The position numbers and the translations under genes were made by a program. DNA of 64,000 nucleotides from Chrysophaeum taylorii (Eukaryota; Sar; Pelagophyceae; Pelagomonadales; Pelagomonadaceae), in NCBI GenBank assembly GCA_029834535.1, contig JAQMWT010000003.1, positions 124,001 to 188,000 on the forward strand, written 5' to 3'. Of this stretch, positions 24,358 through 51,509 are shown piece by piece. How positions within the stretch are numbered: the stretch's first letter is position 1; each line of letters begins with the position of its first letter. The notes under the pieces were generated by a model. It ran no database searches. It saw only the letters and a list, made by a program, of their open reading frames with translations, and was not told where the DNA came from.

Positions 24358-26230
24358 ATGGTAGAACACGCAGCACGAGCCGCAGCCAAGACGATCATAG
24401 GTGCGGATATACTATCCTCCGGAATCAAATTCTCGATCGCGTTTTCCTGGAATGGAAGACCGATAGGGCTGCTGATCTCCGTTTAGCTGTTGGTGAATTG
24501 CCCCCCGAGTATCAGGAATGTTACTTCACCAATGAAGCCTTCCCCAACTTACCTGATGCAGAAGTAGCTCAGCTAGCTACTGTCAGTTACGACAATGAAG
24601 ACAAGGCATTACGCCCTGAAATCAATCCTCGTTTCTAAGAAGAGGAACAAATCTTAAATCGTGCGCACCCGAAAGCATTAGCTTTTGACACCCGTGTTCG
24701 TGCCCCTGTTACTATGTTTTCGTTAACTGCTGCTGACTGGCACACTTATCAGAATACGTATGCTACATTCTTGCATACTTATTTCAATCTTAAAAGTGTT
24801 GGAAAACCAGCATTTGCGGCCTGGCCCGCCATCAATGAGGTGTATAACAAAAGTTATTTACCCCACAAGGCTCGAGCCATTATGCTCATTGCCTTTAGTC
24901 ACTACGAGTCTGTTACGACTACTGATGTGTCCTACTTGAAACAGCAGTTCAACTCTGTTGTTTATATCCTAGCTGGTATGTCCATGTCTTTATCGAAGCT
25001 GTCCTAGCATTTAGGCAAATCTCTTACCAACTTAACCAGGAAGAGACTGACCTTCAATTCGACTTTGGTGCTCTTTGTATAAAAATTTATGAAGAGATAC
25101 ATCGGCATTATGCCGATAATACCAGCAACAATCGTTACGATCGTGGTTGGGTAGATTGGTGTTATATGTATGAAACCCGATCTTCATCTCGGCCTTTGCC
25201 AGACGCTGAACGATTGTGTCACCCTACCAACCCTAGCTATATCTTAGAATATGCATTAGACTTATATAGTGTAGTATCAAATGGGTCGAACAAAAGACGC
25301 TTAGAACGCCCTGTTTCTTGGCAACCCTATGTCGAAGGATTGACACCTCAACCAAAGCCAAAGTTACTACTTACAAACACGCTGGATTTAGCAGACAAAA
25401 GTCTGACTCAAACTGCTAACACACTCGCGTTCATTACTTCGTCTCAACCTGGTACATCTTCCACGTTTAATGCTAGACGCTTGCGTAACTCTAACGATGC
25501 TCGCCAGCCTTTCTCTCGCAGCGATCTATCATATTATCGTTCTGGTGATTCTTATGTCACCAAGAAAACTGCTGGACAGTCCCATGACCGTCCAATTTAC
25601 CCCCGCACTTTCGACAGGTCCTCTCGATCTAACATGAAATTATTAGATCGAACGAAGCACACCTTAAATACACTGCAAGAGCAGTGTAGCGAACTTACGA
25701 AGCATGTGACAGATAATGATACCACGGCTCAGCTACAACAGAATATCAACAAGTTATTTGAGACTCTATTGCAATCCGCTGACATTCTGTCAACGACATC
25801 TACTGAGGACAACAGTGACTTACTTCGCCTAAACGAACAACTCATGTTCGCAGAAGACATCATTTATGATGTAGACGTTCATCTATCCTCGACCGAAAAG
25901 TCGTTAAACTACGTGGAGCCACAACATCATACTGTTGCTACTGCTCCCACCCCAAAGGCAACTCCTCCTACTACAGAGACCTAGGATGCCTCCAACACAC
26001 AGGGTAATCCCTCCAATATTGTGTCTAACTTCTTTACTGCTTCCGCCATATCGGCTTTACCACCAGCGTTACTGTCCTCGCTATCTTCACAGGTCCAATC
26101 TGCCATCAACCAACCACCACAAGCCGAAACCAAAAGGGATGTCGATCAGACTTCGCTATCGTCATTTGATGAGAAGCACGGCATGGCTGATGAGGCTGAC
26201 GAACCATCACCACCTGTTCACTGACGAAAC
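24358..26230 (+). pseudogene. gag: Copy A gag
   Basis: Start at MVEHAARAAAKTIIGADI, supported by copy C, which begins MAERAGRAAPKAVTGADI. No zinc knuckle is seen. Conserved blocks are VAQLATVSYDNE, ADWHTYQNTYATFLHTYFNL and RAIMLIAFSHYESVTTTDVS (24,730-24,960), then SYIxEYALDLY and NARRLRNSNDARQPFSRSDL (25,220-25,530). A coiled coil around 25,650-25,900 precedes the boundary motif STEKSLNY. Breaks: frameshifts near 24,430 and 25,000, an in-frame TAA near 24,637 and a TAG at 25,982. The family is far from ordinary copia gag, so the call rests on position and on conservation between copies. Confidence 0.7.
25892..25911 (+). other. Boundary motif A1 (end of gag)
   Basis: ACCGAAAAGTCGTTAAACTA, in frame as T-E-K-S-L-N-Y. 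Confidence 0.85.
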
Positions 26231-26284
26231 TGTTAGGCTGACGAACCATCACCACCTGTTCAGCCGATTATCATTCCAAATTTC

Positions 26285-27008
26285 TTGTTATTTCTGGAGA
26301 ACTTCTTCACTGCCAGCCTCTCCACTACTTGCCCGCATTCGGAAAATGCACTCCTAACCAACTATATGAAGGTAAACAGTGTCCCTCAACATTGTTCCTT
26401 TTTATATTTTGACTCTTGTGCTACCATATCCTTGATGTCCACGTACGATTTTGCAATACCAAATCATATTATTCCACTGGACTCCAAATACGCGCCGATT
26501 GTTATTCAAACTGCCACTGGACAACAACGTGCCTCACACATGATGTTAACACGTAACATAGTTGTTCCCCTACCAGATCATCCACAAATTGGCTATGTCA
26601 AGATCGATTTCGCTTTATGTCTTCAGCCAGTGCACGACCGACATCTCCCTGAGCATGCTCGAGTGGAACCAGTCGAACCTGACCACTGTGTTCAATGATC
26701 GATCTGAGCCAAAGCTCAGCGCTGTCACGAGCCGCATAGACAAAGATGTACGTATTCCCATACACTACATAGCAGCTAATTTACCTGCTCTCCCTTGTCT
26801 CACCTACAACATCGCTCGCGACAAACAACTCGAACTTCGCTCCCTCGCATTTCCGCTCAAGCGATACCATGAAAACAGGGATCTACTGGTATATTACAAT
26901 TATCTCCTCAAAAGAGTTTTACCAGATCGCCCGTGGATTCGTCCTTTGGTTCTTAATCTTCGGAAACAGAACAAGTTTGTCCAGCAAAACACACCGCCAT
27001 TAACCTGA
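26285..27008 (+). pseudogene. Copy A aspartic protease region
   Basis: The likely active site is FLYFDSCATISLMSTYDFA (Asp codon 26,411-26,413) in the right place between gag and pol. Cys stands where retropepsins have Gly (D-S-G), and copy B has the same change (VDSCASISLM). TATGQQRASHMM and IGYVKIDFALCL follow. A frameshift near 26,640 and the TGA at 27,006-27,008, which also exists in copy B, separate it from the methyltransferase. It would process the gag-pol polyprotein. Confidence 0.65.
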
Positions 27009-27023
27009 ATACTATCGCGCCCA

Positions 27024-28902: not shown

Positions 28903-28925
28903 CGTCAATTTCCAACAACTGCTTG

Positions 28926-28945
28926 ACCGAAATGTCGTTTAACTG
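28926..28945 (+). other. Boundary motif A2 (before integrase)
   Basis: ACCGAAATGTCGTTTAACTG, two changes from consensus, in frame as T-E-M-S-F-N-C. Confidence 0.75.
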
Positions 28946-30943: not shown

Positions 30944-31540
30944 TTGGAGGAATACCTTCTGGTCTCTACTGAGTATATCACCCAGGTCTTACATGCCGAC
31001 CCTACTATCCATATTCAACTGGAATCTGCTTCTTCTACTCCTCCTACTGACGCTGTTTCCAATTATCCCGAAGTCGCGCACGCCGCCTCGACCGCAACGT
31101 CGGTAAACTATAGTTCACCCGCCACTGTTGGTCCTGACGAATATAAGGTCCAAGAAGCGGACGTTTCCATCGATGAATACAAACTCAAGTGCCTCCACTG
31201 TATGTCGCCTGAAGACAGGCACGCCTACCTCAAGGCCATCGCCAAGGAACTCCACGACATTATCCGCTTTGGCTGCTTCAAACTTTCTTTACCCGACGGT
31301 GTCTCTCGCCCTATTGACAGCAGGATGGTGCTGAAGATTAAAACAGACTCTGCAGGCAAATACGTTAAGCACAAGGCTCGCCTCGTGCTACGTGGCTTCC
31401 TAGCATCTCTTGGCGCCGATTTCTTTGGCACCTTCAGCCCAATGGCCACAATGACCGCAATCCGGGTACTACTGGCGATTGCAGCATACAAGCAATTGCC
31501 TGTCTACCACGCAGACGTCCCGAACGCCTTCGTTCAGTCT
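30944..31540 (+). pseudogene. Copy A reverse transcriptase, first part
   Basis: Opens after the boundary motif STATSVNY with VGPDEYKVQEADVSIDEYKL, then YLKAIAKELHDIIRFGCFKL and KHKARLVLRGFLASLGADFF, FSPMATMTAIRVLLAIAAYK and VYHADVPNAFVQ, all standard copia RT blocks. It is cut at 31,540 by an inserted element; the coding sequence resumes at 32,930. Confidence 0.9.
31091..31110 (+). other. Boundary motif A3 (integrase/RT)
   Basis: ACCGCAACGTCGGTAAACTA, in frame as T-A-T-S-V-N-Y. Confidence 0.85.
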
Positions 31541-32929
31541 TAACTACTAATCGACAGATGTTTGTCTGTCTGTTTGTCTGTCTGTCTTTAAATGTCGACT
31601 GCTAAGAGGGGGGGGTGCGTGTGGGGAGCATGAAGGATGTGGGTGGGTTTGTGGGGTATGAGGGATGTGCCTGACGGGCGGAGATAAGTACGCGGGACCT
31701 AGTCGGGGTCATCGCCGAGGCGTGGGGCAGGCGAAGAGAGGACGGGCCCCGCCCGTAGGTCGTACGCATGCTGCCGCCGGACGTATGTGCGACGAAGGGT
31801 GACGTCCTGCTGGGATCGGGCGGCCTGGGCGGGGTTCCCCGAGGCGGCGACATGGGTGAGGGCGGTGAGGGCACAGCGAGCCCGGCCTAATGTCTGTCTG
31901 TCTTTAAATGTCGACTGCTAAGAGGGGGGGGTGTGTGTGGGGAGCATGAAGGATGTGGGTGGGTTTGTGTGGATTTAGGGTAAGGATCATGTAGGCGCGA
32001 GAGTAAGGATCAGGTAGGCGCGAGAGCCAGACAGTGATCCTCCAAGCCGTCTACGGCGAGGTCAGACTATTTCCACGACCCGCGGCGGCTCTTTTAGCCA
32101 GCGCGCCATTCTCACGCCCCGTCGAAACGATGTTGTCGATGCTGACAACGCGCGCATGAATGACCGCGGCCTTTTTTTCCCGGAGACGAGGCGTCGGAGT
32201 TCTTTTCGGCCGACTAGGTTGGGTCGGAAGACGACGCCTCGCTCTTAACAGTCGAGTTTTCAACTCCCTGACAACCAACGGCATGCTGACTTTGATCGCG
32301 AGCTTAATGTCTTCGCAACCTCGACCCGTCGCACGGCCACTGCAACGGTACCAGATACATGATCGATCGTGTGGTGTCACCGAGGCTCCTCCAACCTGTA
32401 TCCCTTAAGGCCTGCCGACGCCAAACGATCGACAAGAGCCAGGGCCAGACGCCCCGCGAGGTCGGCGTCCTCTCGCCCAAGCCCGTCTTCTGTCACGTCC
32501 AGCTCTACGTGCCTCTCTGTCGATCGGCAACCCCCAGGATATGCTCTTCTGAGTCGACGACTCCACCCTACCCCACACGTGCTGCGCAATGCCGATAAGC
32601 CCCCTCCCGGCGTCTACACGCGCACTGTAGGTGAACTTGCTGGGACCAGGTGAACTTACTGGAGCCAGGTGAACTTACTGGGGTTGGAGATTGGGACTAG
32701 GTGAACTTAGTGACCAGGTCAACTTACTGAGGCCAAGTGAGCTTACTGGGGTTTTTAGAGTAAACTCAAAGGTTAGCGACGTGTGCGGATCAAAGCAGCT
32801 TAGATTGCCGGGGGTGAGAGCGACGAGCTCAAAGGAGAGTGGGGTGAGTGGATGTGAGCACGACTGGGTTTACGCCGAACTTACTGGGGTTAGAGATTGG
32901 GAGTAGGTGAACTTGCTGGCCTGCACTTG
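31541..32929 (+). mobile_element. Unclassified inserted element carrying a PIF1 fragment, copy 1
   Basis: 1,389 bp dropped into the RT of copy A; copy B shows the empty site. It begins TAACTACTAATCGACAGATG and ends TGGCCTGCACTTG. The same ends occur in reverse at 36,700-38,739. The flanks share TCT, a possible 3-bp target duplication. No TIRs are visible and the ends lack the Helitron TC...CTRR pattern. Contents: GTCT microsatellite, the GC-rich module found three times in the window, a PIF1 helicase C-terminal fragment, and a minisatellite of AGGTGAACTTACTGG units (32,628-32,755 and 32,890-32,925). Confidence 0.7.
32258..32599 (+). pseudogene. PIF1 helicase C-terminal fragment
   Basis: After one shift near 32,315 the sequence reads LRNLDPSHGHCNGTRYMIDR. 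Then TIDKSQGQTPREVGVLSPKP and VFCHVQLYVPLCRSATP follow. These are the Helitron/PIF1 helicase landmarks around CNGTR, motif V (NKSQGQT) and motif VI (QLYVALSR). The N-terminal helicase and Rep parts are absent. It is a passenger scrap or the remains of a once autonomous element. Confidence 0.85.
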
Positions 32930-34374: not shown

Positions 34375-34396
34375 AGATGCCTAACCCTAGTTAGTG

Positions 34397-34416
34397 ACCG
34401 CAACGTCGTTAAACTA
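34397..34416 (+). other. Boundary motif A4 (pol/X1)
   Basis: ACCGCAACGTCGTTAAACTA, out of phase with pol; its own phase reads T-A-T-S-L-N then stop. Confidence 0.8.
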
Positions 34417-35598: not shown

Positions 35599-36455
35599 AT
35601 GTTTGGCCCCACTTATACTCAGGCAGAACATCAAGACTTTCTGCGCTTTCTAAACGCGAAACACCCCCTACTTGCACAGCATGTGTTGACCGAAACGTCG
35701 TTAAACTACTCACTCTCCACATCAGAACCTACTCTGGAAAAGTCTTCGCCATCGACACACCCTGCTCCTTCTGCCTCGCCTGATGATGTCGATGCCTTGC
35801 GTCATCAACAAGTCGAGCAACTCCAGGAAACTCTTCGCCTACATATCCGCAAGGTCAACACCCTCAGCGCTGAGAATCTATCTCTGCGCACAGATCTGCA
35901 GGCTGCCATTCCTTCAATCACCTCCCTGGAGAACCGGCTCTTTCCTCCTACAATGCACACGTGTTACTCATAACACTGTACAAGATCACAGAGCTGCTGT
36001 CTCGCTTAACTCTTACAGCTCATGACCAATATGCCGCCAATCACTCCTCCCCGGACGATCACCTCCATCATCTGCGTGACAAGCTGCTCTCGTGTATTCA
36101 AAGCATTCCCTTAGCATGTGAATCGGAAGACTCTTATATCTTCTCGGATCCGTTCGCTGAGTCCAACTTCTTGGAAAACCAGCTGGACACCCTACAACTT
36201 GACTCGCTGGTGCCATCCATACCGAATGCTTTACTTGCACTCACATTTCGTACGGTACCACACCATTCTGCTATTGGTGTTCACCACCTGACAGCAGAAG
36301 CTGACGAAGACGATACCGATACTCTCGAGCCAGTAACGATGTCCACCACCTCTGATAGCCTTAACACACTGTCAGTCGTACCTGTGTTGCGTAATGCTCT
36401 GATCAAAAGCGTCAAGTCGACTCTCAGCTCACCAAGTCCAAGCCCTAAGCCCTAA
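35599..36455 (+). pseudogene. Copy A accessory region X2
   Basis: Starts just before the boundary motif VLTETSLNY (35,689-35,708). A Pro/Ser-rich stretch leads to a coiled coil (VEQLQETLRLHIRKVNTLSA, ENLSLRTDLQ) and the block SLENRLFPPT, also in copy B. A frameshift near 35,965 joins a second half (ELLSRLTLTAHDQYAANHSS, DPFAESNFLENQLDTLQLDS) that ends at 36,455. Unknown function; probably multimeric because of the coiled coil. Confidence 0.55.
35689..35708 (+). other. Boundary motif A5 (X1/X2)
   Basis: ACCGAAACGTCGTTAAACTA, in frame as T-E-T-S-L-N-Y. Confidence 0.85.
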
Positions 36456-38955: not shown

Positions 38956-40320
38956 GTCTCTAGAGAAATGTGATGAGATAGGAGTGAGGGTGAACAGTAG
39001 GAATGGTATGGAACTTCAGAGGCCACATGAAGAAGCATACCTTCTGTTCGAACTCAGAGGTCACCAAGACAGGTGTCTCAGAATCTGGTTTTAGTCAGAG
39101 ATGTGACATTTTGAATACTCTTGGCTAGAGCTTGTGAGACTCTGACTTTGTAAGGGGAAAGCGAAGAAGAGTATTGGAGAGATTTGACCCTCTCCGGGTA
39201 CATGGTAGAGACCGCGTGCGGTCTTAGGCGTGTACAGACCATTCCGCATGCTACTACACAAGGTAGGGATTTAGGCCCTAACTCCTTAAGGACATTAGGT
39301 CCCATAGAAGCGTTTTCACTGACAACGAGGAACGAAGCCTCTACTAATTAAGCAGAAGCCCCTGTACCTAACGGTACGCGCCTGCATGACTACTCCTTGT
39401 TGGAAGAGAACTTCAGACCATGAACTTCATAGTCTTGAAATAAATAATAATGCGGAAGGGTAAGGAAGGAGAAGGAAGCAGAGGGAAAGCCGTACTATGG
39501 AGAGAAAACCCTCAAGTAGAAGAAGTGTGAAAGAGGGAGTAAGGAATGCCAGCGTCGTACACACTATAGTGTAGCGCTCTGGACCCCCTCGACGTGTGGG
39601 AAAGGCTTCATGCGTTCCAGACTTTCTTGAGTGTGAAGCTTGTGTACGATACATGAGAGCATCGAGTAACTTAAACATAAAACAACAACATAAACGATGA
39701 GGTAACATTACAATTAACATTAGGAGGAGGTTGGACGTGTCGTCACATTCCGTAATGAATCAGCATCCACAACGTCAGATGAGTGGTCCAACTCATCATC
39801 ACTATTGTCTTTAAGTTTCTTTAATTCTGGAGAGGAAGTGTCATGATCTTCGAACTGGTCGTTAGTTGTAGTGTTGTTTATAGTATTCGCGTCGAAGAGA
39901 TCAGCAAGTGGTGACATGACAGAAGACAAATAGGACATAGCCGCAGCAGGTGTTAGAGTACGCTGTTTTGTTGCTGGAATAACATTATCCTGTGCATCAG
40001 ACATAGCAGTATGTGAGCCAACAGCTGCATTTTCGATTAGGATTTGCTGTGTCTCCTCAATTGTATTTGGAGGAGACTGTTCAACAGAAGTGACTATGGA
40101 TTTAGAAATCACATGAGCTAAGACAGCAAGGGTAGACAATGTAGCATCCTGGTGCATCTGGTTGCTGGAAAGCAAATTGTCCGAGAGTGACACATGTTTT
40201 ATGTTCTCTGTTACTTGCGCGATGAGAGCATCGTTAGCACTTTGAAGTTGAGTGATGGTGTCCAAAACATCGGAAAGTCGTTGATCACGTTCTAAAGATC
40301 GCTTATCACTCTTGGCGATG
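38956..40320 (-). pseudogene. 3' part of giant copia copy C (X2 and 3' leader)
   Basis: Reads leftwards as the end of element C, whose rest lies at 52,517-58,317 beyond the inserted copy B. 39,720-40,265 holds a 181-codon frame with a coiled coil (TITQLQSANDALIAQVTENI) and an acidic tail, in the position of X2. 38,956-39,100 reversed matches the DNA before the polypurine tract of copy B (CATTTCTCTAGAGA). The polypurine tract and 3' LTR of C are missing, since the sequence runs straight into the LTR of copy A. Confidence 0.65.
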
Positions 40321-40636
40321 TGCAGAGAAATCTGCTAACTCCTACCCTTATTCCGTCCGTTGAGAACGCGATCTCTTCCTTACCCTTCTCCTTCCTTTCT
40401 ACACAGTCAAATAGTCCTCTGATCTGTGCTCACGCTCATCATCATGGTCTAGCGCGCCCCGCAGGTACGTAGTAATTACATGTTACCCTGATGTGTTGCT
40501 ATGTGTCGTCTGTCGTGTGAAGAGGCCAGGGGGACCACTGCCTGGGTTCCCTGAAACCTACCAGATTGCCAGACTCACGCGGTGAGACGGGATGGTCTCT
40601 CGGTGATCTAACCACTGCCTAGCGGAATACTTTACA
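40321..40636 (+). repeat. 5' LTR of copy B
   Basis: TGCAGAG ... ACTTTACA; partner of 52,197-52,516. Confidence 0.95.
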
Positions 40637-40650
40637 GGTTATGGGCCCAG
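40637..40650 (+). promoter_or_regulatory. Half-tRNA primer-binding site of copy B
   Basis: GGTTATGGGCCCAG directly follows the LTR, complementary to the anticodon arm of initiator tRNA-Met as in copy A. Confidence 0.88.
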
Positions 40651-41175: not shown

Positions 41176-41676
41176 AACGAGCAGTAAAGGTCGCACCCAA
41201 AGCAGTCTGGGTGCTGACATTCCCTTACCTAAGGTTCCCGTTGATTTTCTCAGCGAGAACAACCACTCCAACACCAGAGTGACGGTGCCTCATATCTGAG
41301 GCGTTCCCACTCATATCAGACCAAGTAGCACAGTTGGCTACTGTTTGCTACGCTAACGAGGTCAGGGCTTTTCCGCCCGAAATTAACGATCGCCTTGAGG
41401 ATGGTGAATGCAACCTTAACCTCACGCATTCTCGCGAACTTGCTCTCGGCGTAGTCAGCCATTATCAAGAAATACTTAACCTTTTTTTCGAAGCAGTGTC
41501 TCCGAATGATGTCTCGTATTTGAATCAAGAATTAAACGCTGTTGTGTATATTTGGTGTACATGTTGTTCATTAAATGTGTGCATTCTTTCAAGCATCGCC
41601 TGTTTCAAATCAACCGTTGGACACCAATGTTTTCGAACTTGACCTCACGCGGAACCCTTTCCCACATCTGTTTCCG

Positions 41677-41696
41677 ACCGAAATGTCGTTAAACTA
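41677..41696 (+). other. Boundary motif B0 (extra copy in rearranged gag)
   Basis: ACCGAAATGTCGTTAAACTA, in the misplaced gag C-terminal piece of copy B. Confidence 0.8.
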
Positions 41697-41856
41697 TGGG
41701 CCATAACGTTTTACTGAGTCTGGACCCAGCGCTATTCTTACTACTAATTCCAATGGCCGGCTTTCCTTATGCCATACTGCCGAGCCCGCAAACTTTACTG
41801 AAGCTGCCCTTGCCCAGCTTTCTCTGGAGCAGCTAAAATCAACTATCCACTTACAG

Positions 41857-42002
41857 CTAACTAACTAACTAACTTCAGACCTCTCCCGAGCATGGGAGCC
41901 AGCCCGGACCGACAGGAGCCAGTCCGGAATCACGGGCCTGTAGACGAGGAGCGCCGAAAGGTCGGTCGGCGGAGAGTGACCATCAAGCTTGTCGCAATGC
42001 GA
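41857..42002 (-). mobile_element. SINE-like element, copy 2, truncated
   Basis: (CTAA)n then TTCAGACCTCTCCCGAGCAT, as in the other copies, but only ~145 bp. In its sense direction (minus) it is 5'-truncated. No clear target duplication. Confidence 0.7.
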
Positions 42003-42792
42003 CAACACCAGCAACAATCTCTACGATGGAGGATGGGTCGAATGCCGCCTCATCTATGAAACACGCACCTCCACTAGAGCGCAACCTGAAGCCAACAGAC
42101 TATGTCGCCCTTCTGACTCCTCTACTATTCTCGAGTACGCACTGGACCTCTACAACTCAGTGTCCAATACCACCTTCGATAAAAGACGCCTAGAACCGCC
42201 AGTCTCTTGGATCCCTTACGTAGAAGGATTGTCCACACATCAAAAGCCCAAATTACTGCTAACTCAGCTGCTGGACTCCACAGACACTGAACTGGCGCAC
42301 ACAGCACATGTACTTGCGTCACTTACCAATTCAGCCAATGGACAACAGTCGAAACCCGCATTTAATGCTCGCCGCCTACGTAACTCAAAAGACGCTAGTC
42401 AGCCCTTCTCGCCCAACGATCTTAGCTACTACCGATCCGGTGACTCCTATGTCACCAGAGCCCGCAGTCCTGGTCAATCTAACGATCGCCCTGTGTATGC
42501 TCGCACCTTTGACAGACCTTCTCGATCTGATATGAAATTATTAGATCGCACCAAGCATACTATGCATGCACTCAAAGATCAATTCCGGGAGCTCTCCAAA
42601 TACGTCAATCAAACTACCACTACCTCTCAGCTGCAAGATAAGATTACAAAGCTATTTGAAACGTTGTTGCAATCTGCAGATATTATCGCTACTACGTCTA
42701 ACCCAGACGATAATACAGACTTGCTCCGCTTAAATGATCAACTTTCCTATGCCGAAGATATCGTTCGGAATGTTGACATACATCTGCTTTCG

Positions 42793-42812
42793 ACCGAAAC
42801 GTCGTTAAACTA
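42793..42812 (+). other. Boundary motif B1 (end of gag)
   Basis: ACCGAAACGTCGTTAAACTA, in frame; homologous position to A1. Confidence 0.85.
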
Positions 42813-43199
42813 TGGGGGAGACCAACCTACCATGTCTGCACCCAACACCTCTACTCCACCTAACACAAGTGGCATCAGCTCTTCACCAGCCACTGCTGCT
42901 GCCGCGGAATCAGTCAATTTTACTGCTGACGCCATAGCAAAATTGTCACCTGAGCGACTTACGGAGCTCTCGTCACATGTCACTGCAGCAATGTGCCGAA
43001 GGAGTTCCGATCAAGCAGCGGCCAATACTACACTGTCGAGCAATCCACAAGATCTCTCGCCCTTCGACCTTAACAACGGTCTCGGCAAGGACAACGGGGA
43101 ACCTACCGCGCCCGTCGTTCCTATTACCTTTTCACAAGTTGTGGTCACCTCAAAACTGCTCACTCAAACTAATTTGTTCGCAGCCAGCATTCCTTCTAC

Positions 43200-43875
43200 C
43201 AGTGTACCCTGCGAAACCGCTTTTCTCACCAAATACCGGAGAGACCATAATCCTCTCCTACATTTTCAATTTCTATACGTGGACAGTTGTGCCTCCATCT
43301 CGCTGATGACCACATTTGATTTTGCTTAACGGAATCACATAGTTCCCGTAGACGCTGAATGTGCCCCAGTTGTCCAAACTGCCACTGGACAACAGCAGGT
43401 ATCGCATATCATGGTTGCGAAATATATAGTATCCCCGTTACCTGCTCAACCAGGCATTGGCTACGTCAAGCTTGACTACGCCCTATTCCTCAAACCAGTA
43501 CAGGGTCGACATTTGTTCATCCTAAGTGCCCCCGAGTGGAACAAGGCTCAGCTAACTGTCACTCTCAATGACAATGAACAACCAAATATGTCGCACCTCA
43601 CTAGCTTACTTGATAAAGACGTGCATGTGCCCATTCACTACTTCGACCACGACCACTACCGTGTCTACCCTACACACTTGCACGCGATAGGAACCTTGAA
43701 CTACGTTCACTATCATATGTTCCCGCTGAAGAGGTACAACGAAAACCGTGACCTTTGCCACTATTACAATTACCTGGTCACCAAGCTCAAAACTCGACCG
43801 TGGCTGCGTACTCTACTTCGCAACCTTCGGATGCAGAATGAATATGTAAGAAACAACACTCCACCTCTCACCTGA
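43200..43875 (+). pseudogene. Copy B aspartic protease region
   Basis: The active site is FLYVDSCASISLMTTFDFA (Asp 43,282-43,284), again with Cys for Gly. A TAA at 43,327-43,329 breaks the frame; it resumes in the same phase with TATGQQQVSHIMVAKYIV and GIGYVKLDYALFLKPVQ, then PLKRYNENRDLCHYYNYL. It ends NTPPLT followed by TGA (43,873-43,875), the same stop in the same place as in copy A. The next codon is CTA, a context known to favour UGA readthrough. Confidence 0.65.
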
Positions 43876-43935
43876 CTACGCACCCGTCCAGCATTCCTAT
43901 CAACTACCAACAATGGCTCTCGCAAACCAACTGTC

Positions 43936-45033
43936 ATGTTACTATGCCCTGGATTGTCAACACCTGCGTCCCTGTCACAGGCCACCAATGACTTGGGCTT
44001 AAACATCCACGTTAAGATTGCTGTTGAGTCCGACGAAACGCCTGTGCGCATGCTGCGCAAACACTTTCCAAAGATTATTATCTTCGAATCTCTACCCTCC
44101 TTCCTCAATCATCTCCAGTCTATAACGGAGGATGAAAGACGGAATTTTTACTGTGATGTGATAGAAATCACTCCACCTTGTACCAACCGAAACCTTCTCA
44201 AGAGCACCAAAACATCCGACTTGGCCAGTTTGCTCGATGACTCCCTCTTTGACAGTATGCTATCTGTCATCAAACTACTCAAACCCTTAGTTCTACTTGC
44301 GGAGATGACACCCCCTCACAAGTGCATTCACAGGGATCACATCTCCGTAGCTAACCTCATTCACGCCACACTGGACTACACTGTTGATGTAGTCGACCGC
44401 TTCCCTACCTATCTGTGCGGCGATTATCAATCTCGGGAACGATGGATCTGCATTGCTCGCAGGTACAACACTGGACCCATGGACATCCTGTCCTGGCCGA
44501 ACCAGCACCCGAAGCGCTTCTTGGACATAGCAGATGACGTTAACTCCGTGCCTAAAACCCTCTGGCTCTCCAAGACTCTGTCTCAAGGCTGGGTTCGCAC
44601 TTACCCAGATCCACCATTGGTTCACTCCCCCAAGACGTTTCCCTTGTACTCTCGTACTGGCTCCGTTCGGCTGAGCTTCTATGAGCTCGAGACCCTCAAC
44701 CTACTCTTCCTCCGGCTTCATTCACAGCAGGCTTTCGAACAACATACGCATAAAACGCACTCGGTGTGTTCCTATCATCAGCTTGGCTTCAAGAGGTCTT
44801 ATAATCAACCACTACCCGGGTCATCAAATCCTCTTCGCCTCAAGGCATTTATCACCCTAATATATACAATTTGTTCGCCAGAATCTCGCCGAACAACGCT
44901 ACACCGGTATCTTACTATGCTACGATCTTCGAAACTAACCAGCCCGCTCCTAGGCTATTTCTTACAACTTCCTCATCTACCTTCAATATCCACACTCTTA
45001 CCGGTGGACACCACTCTGATGGCAACTTACTAG
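43936..45033 (+). CDS. C5-cytosine DNA methyltransferase domain, copy B
   Basis: 365-codon frame, still in phase with the protease across the TGA at 43,873. Motifs: I, VMLLCPGLSTPASLSQATND; II, VKIAVESDETPVRMLRKHFP; IV, CDVIEITPPCTNRN (catalytic Cys 44,179-44,181); VI, PLVLLAEMTPPH; VIII, CGDYQSRERWICIARR; IX, YSRTGSVRLSFYELETLNLL; X, GSSNPLRLKAF. All three catalytic landmarks agree with copy A, while the target-recognition stretch (44,480-44,640) differs more. Frame and motifs are intact although RT and gag in the same copy are broken. It would act in the nucleus or in the particle; its target is unknown. Confidence 0.87.
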   Translation: MLLCPGLSTPASLSQATNDLGLNIHVKIAVESDETPVRMLRKHFPKIIIFESLPSFLNHLQSITEDERRNFYCDVIEITPPCTNRNLLKSTKTSDLASLLDDSLFDSMLSVIKLLKPLVLLAEMTPPHKCIHRDHISVANLIHATLDYTVDVVDRFPTYLCGDYQSRERWICIARRYNTGPMDILSWPNQHPKRFLDIADDVNSVPKTLWLSKTLSQGWVRTYPDPPLVHSPKTFPLYSRTGSVRLSFYELETLNLLFLRLHSQQAFEQHTHKTHSVCSYHQLGFKRSYNQPLPGSSNPLRLKAFITLIYTICSPESRRTTLHRYLTMLRSSKLTSPLLGYFLQLPHLPSISTLLPVDTTLMATY

Positions 45034-45635
45034 TTGAGAACAATGCAAGCAAATACCAGACTTCCATTGACGCTTATGGATCTACTTACACCCTAACCGC
45101 CAGCGATAACCCCGCCGATAAGAAGCTCCATCTCGACTCGTTTCAGGGATACCTATGGCTAGTGCAAGCCTACCCCCTTGTCAACGCAGCCCACAACACT
45201 GTCCCTGCCATCCGCAACTTACTCCAACAGTGCTCTCTTGTTATACCTGACTGTCTCTCATACAACCAACCCTCCGACCAATTCATTTTCAAGGACAGAT
45301 ATTTTTCCTTGGGAGATTACCATGTTTCTCATAGCAGGTATATTGACGACTTACGCGGCAGCGACCGCAAGCTCGGATCCAAAATTCACTATATGTCGGC
45401 TCCATTGCCAACTATCCGGGGATATGCCAATATCATCTTGTTGGACCCTCGCAACGGCAAACTCCGCTACCCCACGCGAGCCGAACTTATCAAAGCTAAC
45501 AACCACACTCGCTTCCAGACGTCCTTCTTACTTTCATTGAAGAAAGACTTATGCTGCGACCTACTCAGCAATGCTCTACCTGCGGGCACTTATCATACCC
45601 TTACACCCGCCTCTTTCGCGTGGTCGCCAATATGA
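44871..45635 (+). CDS. Conserved unknown domain between methyltransferase and integrase, copy B
   Basis: 254-codon frame overlapping the methyltransferase end, so one frameshift separates them. Blocks shared with A: SRYIDDLRGSDRKLGSKIHY, RGYANIILLDPRNGKLRYPT and SLKKDLCCDLLSNALPAGTY; upstream part GYLWLVQAYPLVNAAHNTVP. No family recognised. A second shift near 45,620 leads to the integrase frame. Confidence 0.6.
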   Translation: MFARISPNNATPVSYYATIFETNQPAPRLFLTTSSSTFNIHTLTGGHHSDGNLLVENNASKYQTSIDAYGSTYTLTASDNPADKKLHLDSFQGYLWLVQAYPLVNAAHNTVPAIRNLLQQCSLVIPDCLSYNQPSDQFIFKDRYFSLGDYHVSHSRYIDDLRGSDRKLGSKIHYMSAPLPTIRGYANIILLDPRNGKLRYPTRAELIKANNHTRFQTSFLLSLKKDLCCDLLSNALPAGTYHTLTPASFAWSPI

Positions 45636-47256
45636 AGTCAATTATGTTGAAGCCTTCCTTTCAACATGACAGTGCTACCTTGAAGAAGACTTACGTATCT
45701 ACCTTCCTCACCCGTGAACTGCTTCTTTCCAGTCACAGCTCAGACACTATCTTTCAGGCGACTGCATTCATGAGTCATATTTCCAACTGCAGCTGGACCG
45801 AAAAGTCGTTAAACTACCGTTCCTCAGGAACAACCCCTGAAGAAGCCCTTGCTATAACTCCCACTGCTGATGATGCTGACACTAACGATGATCCTGATGC
45901 CCCATCATTAGACGCATCCACAGAGCTCAAATTCAATGTCCGTCGGAAGAAACACATCCCGGTCAAAGCAATCCCTCGCAAATCACTCGCCCATGGCACA
46001 GTCGAATACCAAAATGCCAAAGAACGCGCCAACCGCTTCCACAATGTACATCACTGTCCTGATAACGTTGCCGCCAAAGCCCCAGACGTTCTTGCTCGCC
46101 CTGGCTTCTCAGCATCCGATATTCCCTACAGGGCTATGTGCATAGACTGCATTGGCCACGACAAACGTCACCGCCACGCCCATACCAACGACACCAAGCC
46201 CAACTTTGAACAGACCCACCGACCTGGTGAAGTCTGGGCTTGCGATGGTGGCTACTTAACCATACTTTCTGAATGCGGCGGCTTCTCCCATATTATCGTT
46301 TTCAAGGGACTACTATCCAAGTTCCTACTCGCCTACTTCACTCGCACCACTAACGCCACCGAATTTACTCAAGCATTAGACTATCTGCATAACTTTTGCA
46401 AAACGCAACTCAATGTGCACCTACGCACAGTATACTCCGATGCGTTCCGGCCGTACTTCAGCCAACACATCACCACTCCCTGCAGGGTCGAAAACGGCAT
46501 CATCCTTGTTGCTTTCCCACCTTACCTTCATCATTTTAACCACGAGGTCGAAAAGAGCATAGGCTTTGTCGCCTCCGCCTTATCTACTCGCCTCCTTAAC
46601 CTTCTCAATACCCATTACCGTGGCGCCAAGATCGTGGAACCTGCCATCCACTTCCAGTGGGCTGTGATCCACACCATCCAATCATACAACCTCTTGCCAA
46701 ATGCCTCACTCGAACGCATTCACCACGCCATCATCAGCCCTCAACAGTTTCTTTATAATCAACTAGCAACACCTCAACATGATCTCCTCAAGATCTTTGG
46801 CAGCGAGTGCTTCCTCCTCCTTGAGCCTCATGAACACCACAAGTATGAGCCCTCTCGGCGCCGCTATCTCTACCTGTGCTGCGCCAACTCCCAAAACCCA
46901 CTTGTCTCTCCTCATGTTGACCATCAAGCTGATGTTGTCCTTAATCCTGAAAATGGCCAGCTTCGCATCACCTCTAAACTGACCTTCACCTACATGATCC
47001 GCCGCTCCACCTTGGATCCTGAACATGCTCCTCCACCTGATGCTCCGCCAGTATCCTTCGACATTAGCCCTCATCGCGATGAAGACCCCGATGATGCGTT
47101 GCAGAGGGGGATTCATCCTGAGAGGGGGCACACGCCCGCTCCTGCCCCGTCGCCAACTCCGCCTCCTTCTCCTAAGCCTACATCCGCAGCCTCACCACAT
47201 GCTGACGACACTACTTCTCGTGACGACAATACCACTTCGCCACCGCCAATAACTAA
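45551..47256 (+). CDS. Copy B integrase
   Basis: The frame includes the boundary motif WTEKSLNY (45,797-45,816), an acidic spacer and ELKFNVRRKKHIPVKAIPRK. Zinc-binding VHHCPDNV...MCIDCIGHDKRH comes next, then the DDE core: VWACDGGYLTILSECGGF, LRTVYSDAFRPYFSQH, FNHEVEKSIGFVAS. HTIQSYNLLPNASLERIHHA and LLLEPHEHHKYEPSRRRYLY follow. It ends in a Pro-rich linker where a SINE-like element has inserted (47,251), adding the last few codons. Confidence 0.88.
45797..45816 (+). other. Boundary motif B2 (before integrase)
   Basis: ACCGAAAAGTCGTTAAACTA, in frame; homologous position to A2. Confidence 0.85.
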
Positions 47257-47614
47257 CTAACTAACTTCAGACCTCTCCCGAGCATGGGAGCCAGGCCGGA
47301 CCGACAGGAGCCAGTCCGGAATCACGGGCCTGTAGACGAGGAGCGCCGAAAGGTCGGTCGGCGGAGAGTGACCATGAAGCTTGTCGCCATGCGACGAGGA
47401 GACCGCGATGTGACTGATAACCAACTCGTCGATAACCTTCCGTCTTCGCCCCCCGGCCATACCCCATCCCACTGCGAACGTTCCGGCTGCCAACCGGCCC
47501 GCCCGGGAGGCGAATAGGTGCCAACCTACGCCGGGAGGGCGGATGCCCTCGCAAGGCCCAGGATTCATGAGGCACTGTCCTCCATCGCAACTGCAGTCGG
47601 CGATCAGGGTAAGG
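47251..47614 (-). mobile_element. SINE-like element, copy 3
   Basis: Full-length copy in the integrase-RT linker of B. AACTAACTAACTAACTTCAG opens the plus strand (tail end); the other end is ...GCGATCAGGGTAAGG. CAAT at 47,247-47,250 and 47,615-47,618 is the target duplication, and copy A shows the empty site. Confidence 0.8.
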
Positions 47615-47618
47615 CAAT

Positions 47619-48226
47619 TCCCCCTTCTTACAAGGACTTGTTCTCTCAAGACCACCCTCAACTTGTCCCGGGGACTAAGCGCCCCAACCAGCGTAAAGCC
47701 TCCTCCATGACCTCTGTCAATGCTCGGCTCCAAGCTTCTACGGTTGGTGCCTATAAAGCCGCTGGCGGCAAACTCGCTGACTTCCGCTGGGACCTTCAAC
47801 ATCGCTTTCTCGATTTCAAATCACCCACCCTCTCCTCCCTCAACACCTCTGTTGGCATCCACTGGACGGTTCTCTGCCCAGAGGGGGAACAGGCTCTGCT
47901 GGTCAAACACCTTCCATTGCGTACCGATCTTCTATCTCGCTACCCCTTACTCGATGGTGCTTTCTCGCAAACCAAATGCGCATCCAGCATCCCAGTAGCT
48001 ACACACCTCATCACCGATGCCACTCCTAGTTGCCACCTCCCGACCTGGTTGTTGCCTTGGAACCTGACCACTCTACCCCTTCCACTTGTGCCACTCACGC
48101 ATATCCTGAAGTCCGCTACACTGCCTCGACCGAAACGTCATTAAACAATGGCTCCCCAGCCACTATAGGTCCGAACGAATACAAAGTCCAAGAGGCCGAC
48201 GTATCCATCGACGAGTACAAGCTCAG
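47619..48226 (+). pseudogene. Copy B integrase-RT spacer domain
   Basis: After the insertion the polyprotein resumes with SYKDLFSQDHPQLVPGTKRP, then NARLQASTVGAYKAAGGKLA, as in A and C. A shift near 47,950 leads to YPEVRYTASTETSLNNGSPA, which carries the boundary motif (48,129-48,148) with Asn in place of Tyr. Unknown role; it may be a hinge between integrase and RT. Confidence 0.6.
48129..48148 (+). other. Boundary motif B3 (integrase/RT)
   Basis: ACCGAAACGTCATTAAACAA, one change near the end, in frame; homologous position to A3. Confidence 0.8.
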
Positions 48227-50008
48227 GTGTCTTTAAGGCCTTTCCCTGAAGACAGACAAGCCTATGTCAAGGCCATCGCAAAGGAACTACATGATATAGT
48301 GCGCTTCGGCTGCTTTAAGCTATCTCTACCTGATGCCTCTACTCGTCCAATTGACAGCCGGCTCGTCCTCAAGATCAAGACGAACGCGTATGGCGATTAC
48401 ATCAAGCACAAGGCCAGATTAGTCTTGCGTGGATTTCTAGCCTCACTTGGCGCTGATTTCTTTGGGACGTTCAGCCCTATGGCAACTATGACCGCCATAC
48501 GTGTCATCTTAGCAATTGCGGCGTACAAAAGACTACCGGTCTACCATAGTGACGTGCCCAGCGCGTTCGTTCAGTCCGACATCGACGCACACGTCTACGT
48601 CCAACTCCCGGATGGCATCAAACTACTTGATCCTCACGACGATAAATACCATGGCCGCCGCTTACCCAAGTTGCTGAAATCCCTTTACGGACTCAGACAA
48701 TCTCCTTCTCTCTGGAACAAAGAGATCGACGGCCTCTTTCGGAGTCTTGGATACAAGCGACTCCAAGCGGATACGTGCCTATATGTGCGCACATCCCACA
48801 CTCGCTTTGTCATTTGCAGTTTATCAGTGGACGACATTGTTATAGTGTCAAATGATGACACTCTCCGCACAGAGTTACAAGAAGCGTTACATGAGCGCTT
48901 CTCTGTGGAACAATTCGAGCCAGTCCAAACTCTTTTGGCAATGCGCGTCTGCCGAACGTCGGATGGATCCATATCGTTAGATGTCGAAGCCAAACTAGAA
49001 GCATTATTTACCGACCATCCCATACTAAAAAACCTCACCCCACTACGGTATCCTATGTCATCCACTTTTACTTATAAAGAAGGCTCCCCTTCTACCGATG
49101 TGGAAATTTATATCCACGATCACTTCGCTACTCTACTTGGTAAATTGGTCTTCATGCAAGTTGCTTGTCGCCCCGATTTCACCTAGGACGCTGTTCCCGA
49201 GGTATGCACTCTCCCACCTATGTGCATGTCCAAATGCTCTGTCACCTCCTAAGGTACCTCAGCAAACCTGCCAATCGAGCTCTTCGTCTCTGGTTTCACC
49301 CTAAAGGGAATGCTATCGAAAACCATCTACGCGTTATTTCATCTAATAGAGTTGACCTGTCAACAATAATCGACTACCGGGACAAAGACATCGCTGCTGG
49401 CAAGTTCGACCCTCTAGTTGCTATGGTGGATGCCGACAACGCTCCTTCACTGGAACAGGAAGACAGAAAGTCCACTACTGGCTTACACTACTGTCTTTGT
49501 TTTCTACCTGTTCAACTGCCTCATCGCCTGGAAAAGCAAACTACAACCCATAGTTTCGTGTTCTACCCACGAAGCTGAGCTTATCGCTCTCAGCATCTGC
49601 GCTGACGAGGCAGTCTGGCTCCGTAAGTTACTTCTTGAGCTCTCGTTTGTTGTTAATCCGACATTCTATATGAATACGCAAACTGACCCTCCTTCCGATT
49701 TTGACGCTGACGACAATCCTATTGCCGAGGATATGCGCTTCATCAGAAGCCTACCTCTTTTGTCTGATAATGCTGCAGCTGTGCACACGTCCAACAACCC
49801 AGACGGTTCTTCTCGTAGCAAAGCCCTTTCCACTCGATGGTTCAAAATTCGCGAATATGTCGCACTACAGAAAATTCGTGTTCACCATGTCCCTGGCAAG
49901 TTAAACGTAGCTGATGGCTTCACAAAGCCTCTTGCAGCCGACTTTACCACATTCCGTTCTCTTCTAGGTATGCACCATGCTACTGACTCAGACCAACAAG
50001 ATACCTAA
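48227..50008 (+). pseudogene. Copy B reverse transcriptase and RNase H
   Basis: Copia RT: KAIAKELHDIVRFGCFKL, KHKARLVLRGFLASLGADFF, VYHSDVPSAFVQSDIDAHVY, LPKLLKSLYGLRQSPSLWNK and LSVDDIVIVSNDDTL (first Asp 48,830-48,832). A short deletion at 49,183 creates a stop after ACRPDFT; sequence continues in other frames to RNase H (VAMVDADNAPSLEQEDRKST, SKLQPIVSCSTHEAELIALS, KIRVHHVPGKLNVADGFTKP). It stops at TAA 50,006; ten more codons in that frame carry the boundary motif and then another stop. Confidence 0.9.
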
Positions 50009-50020
50009 TCTCTAGCCCTG

Positions 50021-50040
50021 ACCGCAATGTCAGTAAACTA
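50021..50040 (+). other. Boundary motif B4 (pol/X1)
   Basis: ACCGCAATGTCAGTAAACTA, in the pol phase just after the pol stop, reading T-A-M-S-V-N then stop. Confidence 0.8.
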
Positions 50041-50379
50041 ACCCTCATCTTTTGCCACTAACTTTTTTTGAGTACGTCGTCGCCAATGCATCACTAACGC
50101 AGCAACCACCCACGTGGAGTCACGCTCGCCCGACGCGAGCTACCTCGCACACTTACGCCCGCTGCGTCGTCTACCAACACTCCCCCTAACCGTAGGAAAC
50201 CAAATCGCGACGACATTACTCGTCTGCTCTCATCCTCTGCTGCTGCGATCCGGCCTGGCTCCAACCCCTTAACCACTTTTGCCGATGCTGTCGTTTTAAA
50301 TGTTTCTCAGCAGGAACATGGATCATCTATCACGTCAGACCAAAAATCCAAACTCCTTTCACCGGTCTCTTATCATATT

Positions 50380-51509
50380 TTCTACATACGGACCTATTCA
50401 AGGCACTTGATTCCATCTACGCATCTCGCGATCACTTGGACTACCAGATCTTCATGGAACTGTCGAACTTCTGCTCGGTCAGAACACCAGTCGTCTTCCC
50501 TCTGCCTTCTGCACCTTCAATATACGCTACACTTTGCTATCGAGGTCTCAAGAAGGAGACCCAACAGTCTTCATTTCACTGCCTTCAATGCTTCGACAAC
50601 GACGGCAAACCGCTCCTAATCTGTGTCTCCAATTATAAAAGGAAGATAGACGAGCTCCCTGCTGCTGTCTTAGAACATCTCGCCAGCGAATCACATATTC
50701 GCAATGCCTTCATACCTGTCTCTATTCCAACTATGGGTATGTGTTGTGCGTGTAGAAACTCTTACCACATTGCCCTCTCGTTTCTTTTCCTCGCGTGGAA
50801 CGCACGTATAATTGTTTTACCTTGTGCGTCATCACCCGCTGGTCACCTCCGTGCCACCATCCTCCGTGTTTTCTTTCTCCCATTGGACCTGCAAGCACTG
50901 CTCCAAGAACTAATCAAGGAACACGCACTACCCGATGATATTATTATTACTTCCCCAGTCACAACAGATTCACAAAATGCGGTGGCTTACCCCTTCAACC
51001 TCAAGTTTATTTATCGGCTTCGTCTGGAACACCTGTCGCTTATTGTGACAATTGTTCACGCACATGTAAAGAAACAGTCGATTATTAAGGCAAGCGCATA
51101 TCAGCCTTTGGTTCACGCTCTCTGCCGCTCTCTCGTACATCACATTGCTGAGTACAACACACTGGCACATGATGAACGACCACCATCTATCTTTGACGAA
51201 ACATCTTCACCAACTACCTTTTGCGACACCGATCGCAAAGATTCTGCTAAGCTCTTATCATCACGCTACCCCGACCTCTATAACGATTTTACCGCTGCGA
51301 CCGAAAAGTCAGTAAACTACCCGCCAGTGGCACCTACTGCCCCGGCACCAACACAACCTAGTACTACTGCCTCTCCAGATCTTGCGGCATTATCCTCTCA
51401 GGTGACTCAACTTACCCAACAGGTTGTAACTCTCCAAACTTCATATGGACAAATGGACCAACGTCTCCACGCCTTATCTACTGAAAATGCTGCTTTGCGA
51501 TCTGATTAA
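50380..51509 (+). CDS. Copy B accessory region X1
   Basis: Homologue of 34,453-35,559. The phase is open from about 50,385 (DLFKALDSIYASRDHLDYQI), before the first Met at 50,436. Cys pairs lie in FHCLQCFDNDGKPLLIC and TMGMCCACRNSY; AGHLRATILRVFFLPLDLQA and LEHLSLIVTIVHAHVKKQS follow. The boundary motif ATEKSVNY (51,300-51,319) separates it from a coiled-coil start of X2 (AALSSQVTQLTQQVVTLQTS). The upstream stretch 50,041-50,380 is Pro/Ser-rich and has stops. Unknown function, conserved in three copies. Confidence 0.6.
51300..51319 (+). other. Boundary motif B5 (X1/X2)
   Basis: ACCGAAAAGTCAGTAAACTA, in frame; homologous position to A5. Confidence 0.85.

Follow-up and report, generated by a model that had tools for sequence, protein, structure and literature searches.

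A 21-nt word, GACCGMAAHGTCRNTAAACTA, recurs between the domains of retrotransposon polyproteins in Chrysophaeum taylorii. Its coding copies share one reading frame, its nucleotides are conserved beyond the needs of its codons, it forms a conserved block 3′ of the pol stop codon (site S4), and it is present in two superfamilies, Ty1/copia and Ty3/gypsy. We judge the chances evenly balanced that the word is a dual-use module: a nucleic-acid element that is reused in frame as a series of retropepsin sites. To our knowledge, retroelement cleavage sites are alike only as peptides, and often loosely; sites whose nucleotides are held tighter than their amino acids, at successive joints and in two superfamilies, would reveal that selection links the processing of the polyprotein to a signal in the nucleic acid.

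The carrier elements

Elements A, B and C are Ty1/copia elements with a methylase-like domain. RVT_2 was matched in B (Table 1), in the C element of the 64,000-nt stretch of DNA that was analysed (the window; 1.9e-34), in a further C-type copy (L130, 4.7e-43) and in two copies of A at C9:106686 and C9:392959 (L001, 1.1e-41; L002, 1.5e-41). The integrase lies 5′ of RT in A and B, where rve and SH3_retrovirus matches are weak and below cut-off, and its place upstream of RT in C was judged by translation only. In A and B, LTRs were recognised as paired repeats at either end of the element.

The gag and PR regions of B are probable assignments, drawn from where these regions lie, from their resemblance to A and from a short motif. 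Pfam gave no match on B 41980–43326 and found no PR; the identity of PR comes from D[ST]CA, which we take to be a protease motif. The RNase H of B (49418–50005, no Pfam match) was assigned by position and sequence, and in an A copy the methylase-like domain matches PF00145 at E 0.043. Structure models of the methylase-like part and the probable protease reached mean pLDDT values of 40 and 38, and no protease fold was obtained. Outside the C. taylorii genome, relatives of the RT are at most 51% identical, and the integrase part has one match; by eye, the motif peptide was not seen upstream of RT in P0003–P0005, three of the five relatives, the other two of which begin inside RT.

Table 1. Positions of the word and of the parts of its carriers in the window
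Feature	Element	Position	Strand	Remarks
Motif S1	A	25891..25911	+	Gag/PR joint, TEKSLNY; exact, in frame
Motif S2	A	28925..28945	+	Before integrase, TEMSFNC, with 2 mismatches; other copies of A match exactly
Motif S3	A	31090..31110	+	IN/RT joint, TATSVNY; exact
Motif S4	A	34396..34416	+	3′ of pol stop, TAG at end; out of frame
Motif S5	A	35688..35708	+	X1/X2 joint, TETSLNY; exact
LTR, 5′	B	40320..40643	+	Part seen as repeat, D4 and D12
Gag region into PR (probable)	B	41283..43326	+	Open pieces 41283-41639, 41980-43326; DSCA at ~43273
Motif S0	B	41676..41696	+	Gag-internal, 5′ of S1; L007 and L160 have a site of this class
Motif S1	B	42792..42812	+	Gag/PR joint, TETSLNY; exact
DNA-methylase-like domain	B	43876..45030	+	Presumed methylase motifs GLSTPA, TPPCTNRN, QSRER; PF00145 E 0.073, below cut-off
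Integrase region	B	45500..47257	+	rve E 0.004, SH3_retrovirus E 0.003, both below cut-off
Motif S2	B	45796..45816	+	Before integrase, TEKSLNY; exact
RT + RNase H	B	48110..50005	+	Pieces 48110-49183 (RVT_2 1.3e-41), 49418-50005
Motif S3	B	48128..48148	+	IN/RT joint, TETSLNN; 1 mismatch
Motif S4	B	50020..50045	+	Longer form GACCGCAATGTCAGTAAACTAACCCT; pol stop codon to ACC = 12 nt
Extra ORFs X1, X2	B	50196..52058	+	No family above cut-off
Motif S5	B	51299..51319	+	X1/X2 joint, TEKSVNY; exact
LTR, 3′	B	52196..52523	+	Part seen as repeat, D4 and D12
Motif S4	C	54510..54535	-	C-type spelling T1/A10; 3′ of pol stop, out of pol frame

The word in the window and the genome

A scan of the window, allowing up to three mismatches, returned 12 matches, against 0.07 in shuffles (largest 1). 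Eleven lie in A and B and nine of these are exact (28926 carries two mismatches, 48129 one), the same tally as in the first-pass annotation; the twelfth, with two mismatches, lies on the minus strand in C (54515–54534). That annotation had described a 20-nt consensus with only T or G at position 13. The word is real, but it is 21 nt long – the base 5′ of ACC is G in 28 of 28 class representatives, a set chosen by motif match in which conservation is inflated – and C also occurs at position 13.

Genome-wide there are 1,140 exact matches and none to the reversed pattern that served as control; a looser pattern (up to two mismatches) has 1,930 matches and its control 11. The motif offers a ready list of predicted protein ends, and its more than 1,000 copies offer material for measuring the function of the signal. 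When viral_contigs (53 stretches) and genome_contigs (51 stretches) were scanned for exact matches, those returned were scattered and mostly single, the chance expectation in genome_contigs being about 30 (by hand).

No copy of the motif is present in the ends of A or the 3′ end of B, and neither likeness of the leader or LTRs to the motif nor pairing with it rose above shuffles, the S0 site itself excepted. An Rfam scan of the window gave no match at the gathering threshold; across the S4 region of B and six loci of S4 type, the one match was sub-threshold and lay away from the motif, with none at the motif.

Coding sites and the cleavage reading

Seven separate coding placements share one frame in intact copies (chance about 0.0014, by hand), and the coding sites fall between recognisable domains. 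In frame they read T-[EA]-x-S-[LV]-N-Y, within the form [ST]xxS[LV]NY; Ser would stand at P4, as in SQNY of retroviral sites. Among the pieces examined, the strict peptide is found off the motif once only, as SFASVNY upstream of the probable protease of a Ty3/gypsy element, F, in which 0.015 occurrences are expected; there the peptide is kept and the motif nucleotides are not. The motif may, as read from the sequence, mark the points at which the polyprotein is cut. Position, frame, peptide form and SFASVNY all support this reading, which the first-pass annotation had proposed; S4 departs from it, since it lies 3′ of the pol stop, where cleavage would be meaningful only if ribosomes read through that stop.

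The cleavage sites of Ty1 (Pseudoviridae) at Gag/PR, PR/IN and IN/RT are RAH*NVSTS, TIN*NVHTS and LIA*AVKAV (excerpt of PMC6952103). S1–S3 stand at the same three joints, a position that suggests retropepsin-type processing here too. The Ty1 sites given in that excerpt are mutually unlike, whereas the A and B sites share one peptide and one nucleotide word, and have extra members in gag and at X1/X2. Retroviral type 1 sites, as described in part of PMC3185560, have an aromatic residue and Pro at the cut, and in primate lentiviruses P2 is Asn. The motif peptide resembles them in having Asn in front of an aromatic residue, Tyr; it differs in mostly lacking Pro at P1′, in its fixed nucleotide spelling and in its non-retroviral carrier.

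Two sites proved more regular than they had seemed. The extra motif in the rearranged gag of B (41677) is indeed present, but it has the same flanks in L007 and L160, so that it looks like a regular gag-internal site, S0, and not a one-off. The pol/X1 site of C, formerly described as decayed, differs from the others by a common spelling with 160 exact matches, and all seven of those inspected are S4 of C-type copia. The motif does not occupy every joint in every family member: C-type copia elements lack it at S1–S3, while S4 is present, and this absence tells against both the first-pass account and the dual-use one.

Constraint on the nucleotides

That the nucleotide sequence itself is constrained, as had been proposed, is supported by a comparison of chosen copies of A and B. 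Shared-residue motif codons are identical in 18 of 19 cases and flanking codons in 110 of 246 (45%), with Fisher P ~1e-5 for sites that, coming from one element pair, are not independent, and for copies that were chosen; third positions of the motif are thus better kept than those of neighbouring codons. Codon 7 of the motif is identical in two of four. Within one motif the Thr of codon 1 is spelt ACC and that of codon 3 ACG; TTA and ACG make up 13% and 10.5% of their respective codon families. Variation among the 28 representatives (in which, again, conservation is inflated) falls mainly at positions 5, 8, 12 and 13, and the wobble positions 3, 6, 9, 15 and 18 are invariant while the non-wobble positions 5 and 8 change. 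Codon 3 specifies Lys, Thr or Met (Ala once), yet it is ANG in 17 of 18. At S3 the motif is as variable as its upstream flank, mostly through position 13. The spelling appears to be held more strictly than cleavage by itself would demand, and the nucleic acid itself may have a role.

A role in frameshifting, with GTTAAAC as a −1 slippery heptamer, strikes us as barely credible: although the phase TTA AAC fits the slippery rule, GCTAAAC and GTAAAC variants recur, and gag and PR of B are in the same frame. A hammerhead-like core was also considered and dropped, since GCAA variants break the core.

S4, the site after pol

S4 lies 3′ of the pol stop, and its last codon is mostly TAG or TAA in place of Tyr. 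It recurs in six copia groups whose flanks are poorly alignable: across nine copies from the six groups a block of 26 columns is 85% identical pairwise, a figure inflated by the gathering of sites through near match to the motif, against 48% upstream and 36% downstream. S4 is probably untranslated. In eight of ten copies it shares its frame with the final stretch of RNase H – the A copy in the window is out of pol frame because four extra bases precede the motif – which leaves room for some translated use, through stop read-through or as a C-terminal tail. S4 has been lost from L125, a C-type copy whose open frame is long.

The paired swap A1–T10 to T1–A10 has 160 matches, the single changes two and five. 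The covariation score of the stem exceeds all 500 shuffles and all slid versions; two of five covariation measures lie within the shuffles (reached by 78 and 193 of 500), and the covariation is essentially one double change, which equals a Thr/Ser swap too. The outermost stem pair fails in 17 of the 28 representatives, and the 3-bp stem has a predicted pair probability of 0.37 on average.

Might a cis-acting nucleic-acid signal alone account for the word, the peptide being a by-product? Such a signal could be an RNA hairpin that serves packaging or strand transfer, a signal for the X1 mRNA, or a protein-bound DNA dyad as suggested for the Sirevirus boxes near env. Conservation of S4 outside the ORF and the covarying GWC...GWC agree with this, as does a place 5′ of an extra ORF like that of Sirevirus RM boxes (PMC2829016, in part), but we think it quite improbable given seven coding placements in one frame and between recognisable domains, a gypsy site that keeps the peptide only, and ends of A and a 3′ end of B that are free of the motif. 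We regard it as very unlikely that S4 is part of a splice acceptor for the X1 mRNA (branch site TAAACTA and pyrimidine tract), with the other copies likewise acceptors: a T-rich tract does lie 3′ of S4 in A, B, D and E copies, but C copies are without one, and only 12 of the 28 representatives have an AG in the 10 nt that follow.

Element F and spread between sites

Element F, with RVT_1, RT_RNaseH and, downstream of its RT, an H2C2 integrase, has two copies of the word in Gag, in addition to its peptide-only site. Spread by conversion or recombination had been suggested earlier, and in one respect this holds, in that the word must at first have been copied to reach several positions and a gypsy element. 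Conversion that is still going on, however, is less favoured, since every site has a variant of its own across copies and switches (judged by eye) are not gathered at the motif. The letters at positions 5 and 8 are site-specific (S1 13/13, S2 12/12, S3 17/18, S4 22/26, S5 14/14; agreement inflated by selection through near match), and across these 83 family-A-type sites each site retains its own letters. Family-A copies are mosaic in places; in 12 of them nearest-neighbour switches, by eye, do not cluster at motifs.

These patterns bear on an account by protease sites only, in which the peptide is selected and the shared spelling reflects common descent plus copying by template switching or gene conversion. 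It would accommodate the frame and position of the coding sites, the peptide-only SFASVNY, an S4 that is mostly in the pol frame as if it were a former pol/X1 site, the partial mosaicism of family-A copies, and the need for past copying of the word, both to several positions and to a gypsy element. We consider it unlikely all the same: sites keep their own letters, switches are not gathered at motifs, one of 19 motif codons differs between A and B where flanks share 45%, S4 is conserved although 3′ of a stop, and ANG persists while the amino acid at codon 3 varies.

Proposed explanation

If the word is a dual-use module, S4, just 3′ of the pol stop, would be its most widely shared place in the copia clade and probably its first. 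Its conservation there would be that of a nucleic acid, an RNA element being the simplest form and a DNA dyad the alternative. The signal plausibly acts in RNA, where a short stem GWC...GWC around a CGNAAH loop would be followed by UAAACUA. In A- and B-like lineages, further 21-nt copies would have come to stand in frame at polyprotein joints (S0–S3 and S5), where they would be read as a retropepsin cleavage peptide, presumably cut after Tyr or after Asn, and the same cause would hold the coding sites and S4. Two copies would have been acquired in Gag of the Ty3/gypsy element, which would give the direction of transfer.

A bolder version, which we find possible though on the whole doubtful, makes the word a portable dual-code cassette, serving at once as a protease site and as a recognition element in RNA or DNA. 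It would have entered one polyprotein joint after another with the frame exactly kept, and would have moved between Ty1/copia and Ty3/gypsy elements of one host. Protein processing and the handling of genomic RNA would then be linked through shared signals.

Relation to known elements

Sireviruses keep short motifs among highly diverged copia elements and have palindromic repeat boxes close to env, on its 5′ side (excerpt of PMC2829016), to which S4 before X1 is comparable in place. Those boxes lie in LTRs and before env, have a CGG-CCG core and belong to plant hosts, whereas the word described here stands at coding joints and has the form GWC(N6)GWC; with its different core, and with no copy in the ends of A or the 3′ end of B, it is not an RM box of the Sirevirus kind. 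Within the portions of text available to our literature search, no nucleotide-conserved word at polyprotein joints was found described.

The methylase-like domain has parallels elsewhere. A Gypsy element with Dnmt3 is known from K. nitens (PMC5890265, in part), and the accessible portion of that source mentions no boundary motif. The PF00145 matches of the C. taylorii elements are only weak, and occur in copia and gypsy alike; DNMT-bearing retrotransposons of Symbiodinium and Klebsormidium carry a cytosine-methylase domain in the polyprotein, as here.

Distribution of the motif

The first-pass annotation placed a repeated word at the joints of retrotransposon polyproteins; this proved correct, and the pattern is more general than was claimed. 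The same joints carry the word in other copies, and the genome (70.8 Mb) holds 1,140 exact matches against none with the reversed pattern; a looser form, at up to two mismatches, gives 1,930 against 11 for the control, while the window contains 12 matches at up to three mismatches where 0.07 are expected. Since the preceding base is G in 28/28 class representatives, we treat the motif as 21 nt, G-ACC-GMA-AHG-TCR-NTA-AAC-TA, with positions numbered from the first base of ACC. Eight of 20 loci picked for motif presence (L001-L005, L012, L013, L015) have five matches in the order S1 (Gag|protease), S2 (before integrase), S3 (integrase|reverse transcriptase), S4 (just after pol) and S5 (between X1 and X2, the extra frames downstream of pol); the remainder are partial, cut or mixed. 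A further class, S0, sits within the gag of B-type elements (window 41677, L007, L160).

Window elements A and B are Ty1/copia: both have LTR repeats and weak integrase matches, and B matches RVT_2 at 1.3e-41; element C is also copia (RVT_2 1.9e-34). The eukaryotic host is probably an ochrophyte alga: among the 120 best matches listed for one of its HSP90 genes, identity is 95% to an MMETSP/JGI protein, 83% to Heterosigma, 82-83% to a Dictyocha-like alga and 80-81% to diatoms. The names of groups A to F and of sites S0 to S5 are labels of this analysis, D and E being classes defined by flank.

Constraint on the nucleotide sequence

That the nucleotide sequence is itself constrained, as had been proposed from its spelling, was supported by comparing codon choice between A and B at homologous sites S1, S2, S3 and S5, with 60 codons each side as flank. 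In well-kept copies chosen for the purpose (A: L002 for S1-S3, L001 for S5; B: the window for S1, S2 and S5, L010 for S3, where the window's own copy would cost one), motif codons 1-6 agree at 18/19 places, counted from printed codons, against 110/246 (45%) identical flank residues with a synonymous choice (Fisher P 1.3e-5). Codon 7 (TAY) is flank-like, at 2/4. Codon use in these frames is 13% for TTA, 13.5% for TCG, 10.5% for ACG and 34% for ACC. Across the 28 representatives, whose collection by motif match overstates fixedness, wobble positions 3, 6, 9, 15 and 18 are fixed; variation falls at 5, 8, 12 and 13, at 7 once, and at the 1/10 pair, two of the variable positions being second codon positions. 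The codon test is less affected by such picking because A's five sites have counterparts in B. We accept nucleotide-level constraint with good confidence.

C-type copia (the group of element C) shows a paired swap. Its spelling, with T and A at positions 1 and 10, matches exactly at 160 places, and spellings with just one of the two changes match at 2 and 5; the seven inspected of the 160 are all S4 (window C, L130, L139, L144, L165, L166, L167), and C-type copia lacks the motif at S1, S2 and S3 in L145 and L130. The swap preserves a stem, G0-C11, W1-W10 and C2-G9, around CGNAAH, which RNAalifold returned unprompted from the S4 alignment with two further outer pairs. Over five pairs and 28 representatives 84% of cells are paired, a level reached by 1/500 shuffles, and the covariation score exceeds 500/500 shuffles and every slid version, although it is essentially one double change and the shuffles ignore relatedness. 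Pairs changed on both sides and pair types were unremarkable (reached by 78 and 193 of 500 shuffles), the outermost pair fails in 17/28 representatives, and for sequences folded singly the pair probability averages 0.37. The swap also exchanges Thr for Ser and Ser for Thr, and such a paired change would be expected of a DNA dyad as much as of an RNA stem. The signal may be read as an RNA stem, a DNA dyad or something else.

Conversion or recombination had been offered as another route to uniform spelling. Family-A copies are indeed mosaic in places (12 copies), but by eye their nearest-neighbour switches do not fall preferentially at motifs. In family-A-type copies, grouped by flank with sites admitted at three mismatches or fewer, the letters at positions 5 and 8 are specific to the site (S1 AA 13/13, S2 AT 12/12, S3 CC 17/18, S4 CC 22/26, S5 AC 14/14), which argues against ongoing exchange among sites, since exchange would mix them. 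Cells off the majority number 33/1,660 in the motif against 103/2,070 upstream and 113/2,040 downstream, flank rows more than 30% different being excluded (upstream S4 4/26, S5 10/14; downstream S2 2/12, S3 1/18, S4 12/26). The S3 motif is no better kept than its upstream flank (3.9% both), mostly because position 13 varies. In family-A-type copies where a short open frame precedes S5, X1 being broken, the S5 motif is intact at 6/8 loci and has one change at 2/8, but these copies are so young that this counts for little. Four family-A copies (L003, L012, L013, L016) share a 283-column deletion in X1, which indicates that the broken form itself propagated.

The motif as a probable cleavage site

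The seven coding placements (S0, S1, S2, S3, S5 and F1 and F2 of the Ty3/gypsy element F) use one common frame in intact copies, for which chance is about 0.0014 by hand calculation. Cleavage of the Ty1 polyprotein falls at Gag/PR, PR/IN and IN/RT (PMC6952103), the same joints as S1, S2 and S3 here; type 1 retroviral sites pair an aromatic residue with Pro at the cleavage point and, in primate lentiviruses, carry Asn at P2 (PMC3185560). A D[ST]CA block is the sole visible trace of the protease, and a model built from near-identical copies failed, so cleavage remains our inference, held with moderate confidence: on sequence grounds, the motif is probably a protease site. Whether both properties hold, making the motif a nucleic-acid element reused in frame as a retropepsin cleavage peptide, we put at even chances.

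Element F was found through motif pairs 87 nt apart (L151, L154, L158, L169, L170; L157 has one match), and its matches are RT_RNaseH 2.3e-25, H2C2 3.1e-18, RVT_1 3.9e-12 and rve 2.2e-11. Its Gag reads TETSLNY, 22 residues, then TETSLNY; a third place, SFASVNY, with nucleotides unlike the motif, lies upstream of a likely protease recognized by eye. Within 13,159 translated residues, some pieces of which overlap or come from two copies, nothing but the motif sites and this SFASVNY fits the strict peptide [ST]xx[ST][LV]N[YF]; 0.015 are expected by chance in F (3,007 residues). A sister family (L171, L172), compared in Gag, shares the Gag start at about 60% identity; the likeness ends some four codons ahead of the first motif, beyond which the sequences differ, so F Gag seems to be a chimera joined close to the motif. 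F (L169) appears to have replaced the stretch of Gag that follows the coiled-coil part.

The copy after the pol stop

At the pol/X1 joint S4 follows the pol stop codon. It is in frame with the last readable RNase H stretch in 8/10 printed copies: directly in L001, L005, L007a, L156 and L166, past a frameshift further up in L152 and L007b, and with part deleted in L167. A stop intervenes in seven of these eight (the exception is L007a), and S4 is out of frame in window C and L165, and likewise in window A. S4 may nonetheless be translated, for example by read-through giving a tail ending S-L-N; this possible reading lowers our confidence in the dual use from slightly better than even to even. 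The base following TA is A or G in 10/10 S4 representatives against C or T in 17/18 others (exception E_S1); two further S4 copies depart from this, L126 with T and L133 with C.

The 26-column S4 block, GWCCGNAANGWCNNTAAACTARYCCT, has 85% pairwise identity in nine copies (groups A, B, C1, C2, D, E), against 48% over the 60 columns before it, which are partly coding, and 36% over the 54 after it; its A/B-type form has 120 exact matches. Among 20 loci selected from 150 scored RVT_2 matches, S4 was present in 14 at four mismatches or fewer and not found at that threshold in L125, L129, L134, L127, L142 and L140. The contig ends in L127, L142 is interrupted, L140 is by translation another copia lineage, the region fails to align in L129 and L134, and L125, which has a long open frame, is of C type. 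In L125 (C344:72327-75127) S4 was apparently deleted between flanking repeats TWACCCT and TARCCCT; in several groups S4 is preceded by TWACCCT or a word like it and followed by TARCCCT, as at window 50005-50045.

Methylase-like domains and inverted repeats

In this genome, copia (A, B, C) and gypsy (F) polyproteins alike contain cytosine-methylase-like domains, which in A and B lie between protease and integrase. PF00145 matches are weak (E 0.04-0.07 in A and B, below cut-off; DNA_methylase 4.1e-4 in F, slightly below) and absent in the C piece, and a structure model failed; the alignment conserves GxSTPA, PCTNRN and Q-x-R-x-R blocks, which we take to be methylase motifs.

Locations of methylase-like domains and inverted repeats
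Feature	Sequence	Positions	Details
Cytosine-methylase-like domain	window (B)	43876-45030	
Cytosine-methylase-like domain	L001	2104-3198	
Cytosine-methylase-like domain	L145	1852-2754	
Cytosine-methylase-like domain	L170		minus strand
Short inverted-repeat unit	window	47251-47591 and 53615-53955; 53337-53531; 41859-42003	up to 341 nt, 96%
Inverted copies inside A	window	31571-31892 and 37795-38112 / 38400-38721	99% alike

The short inverted-repeat unit lies between integrase and RT in B, and elsewhere, in places adjoining AACTAACT runs; L125 and L130 end in similar sequence. The RT region of A seems to be split by an insertion, its open pieces stopping near 31540 and restarting near 33077.
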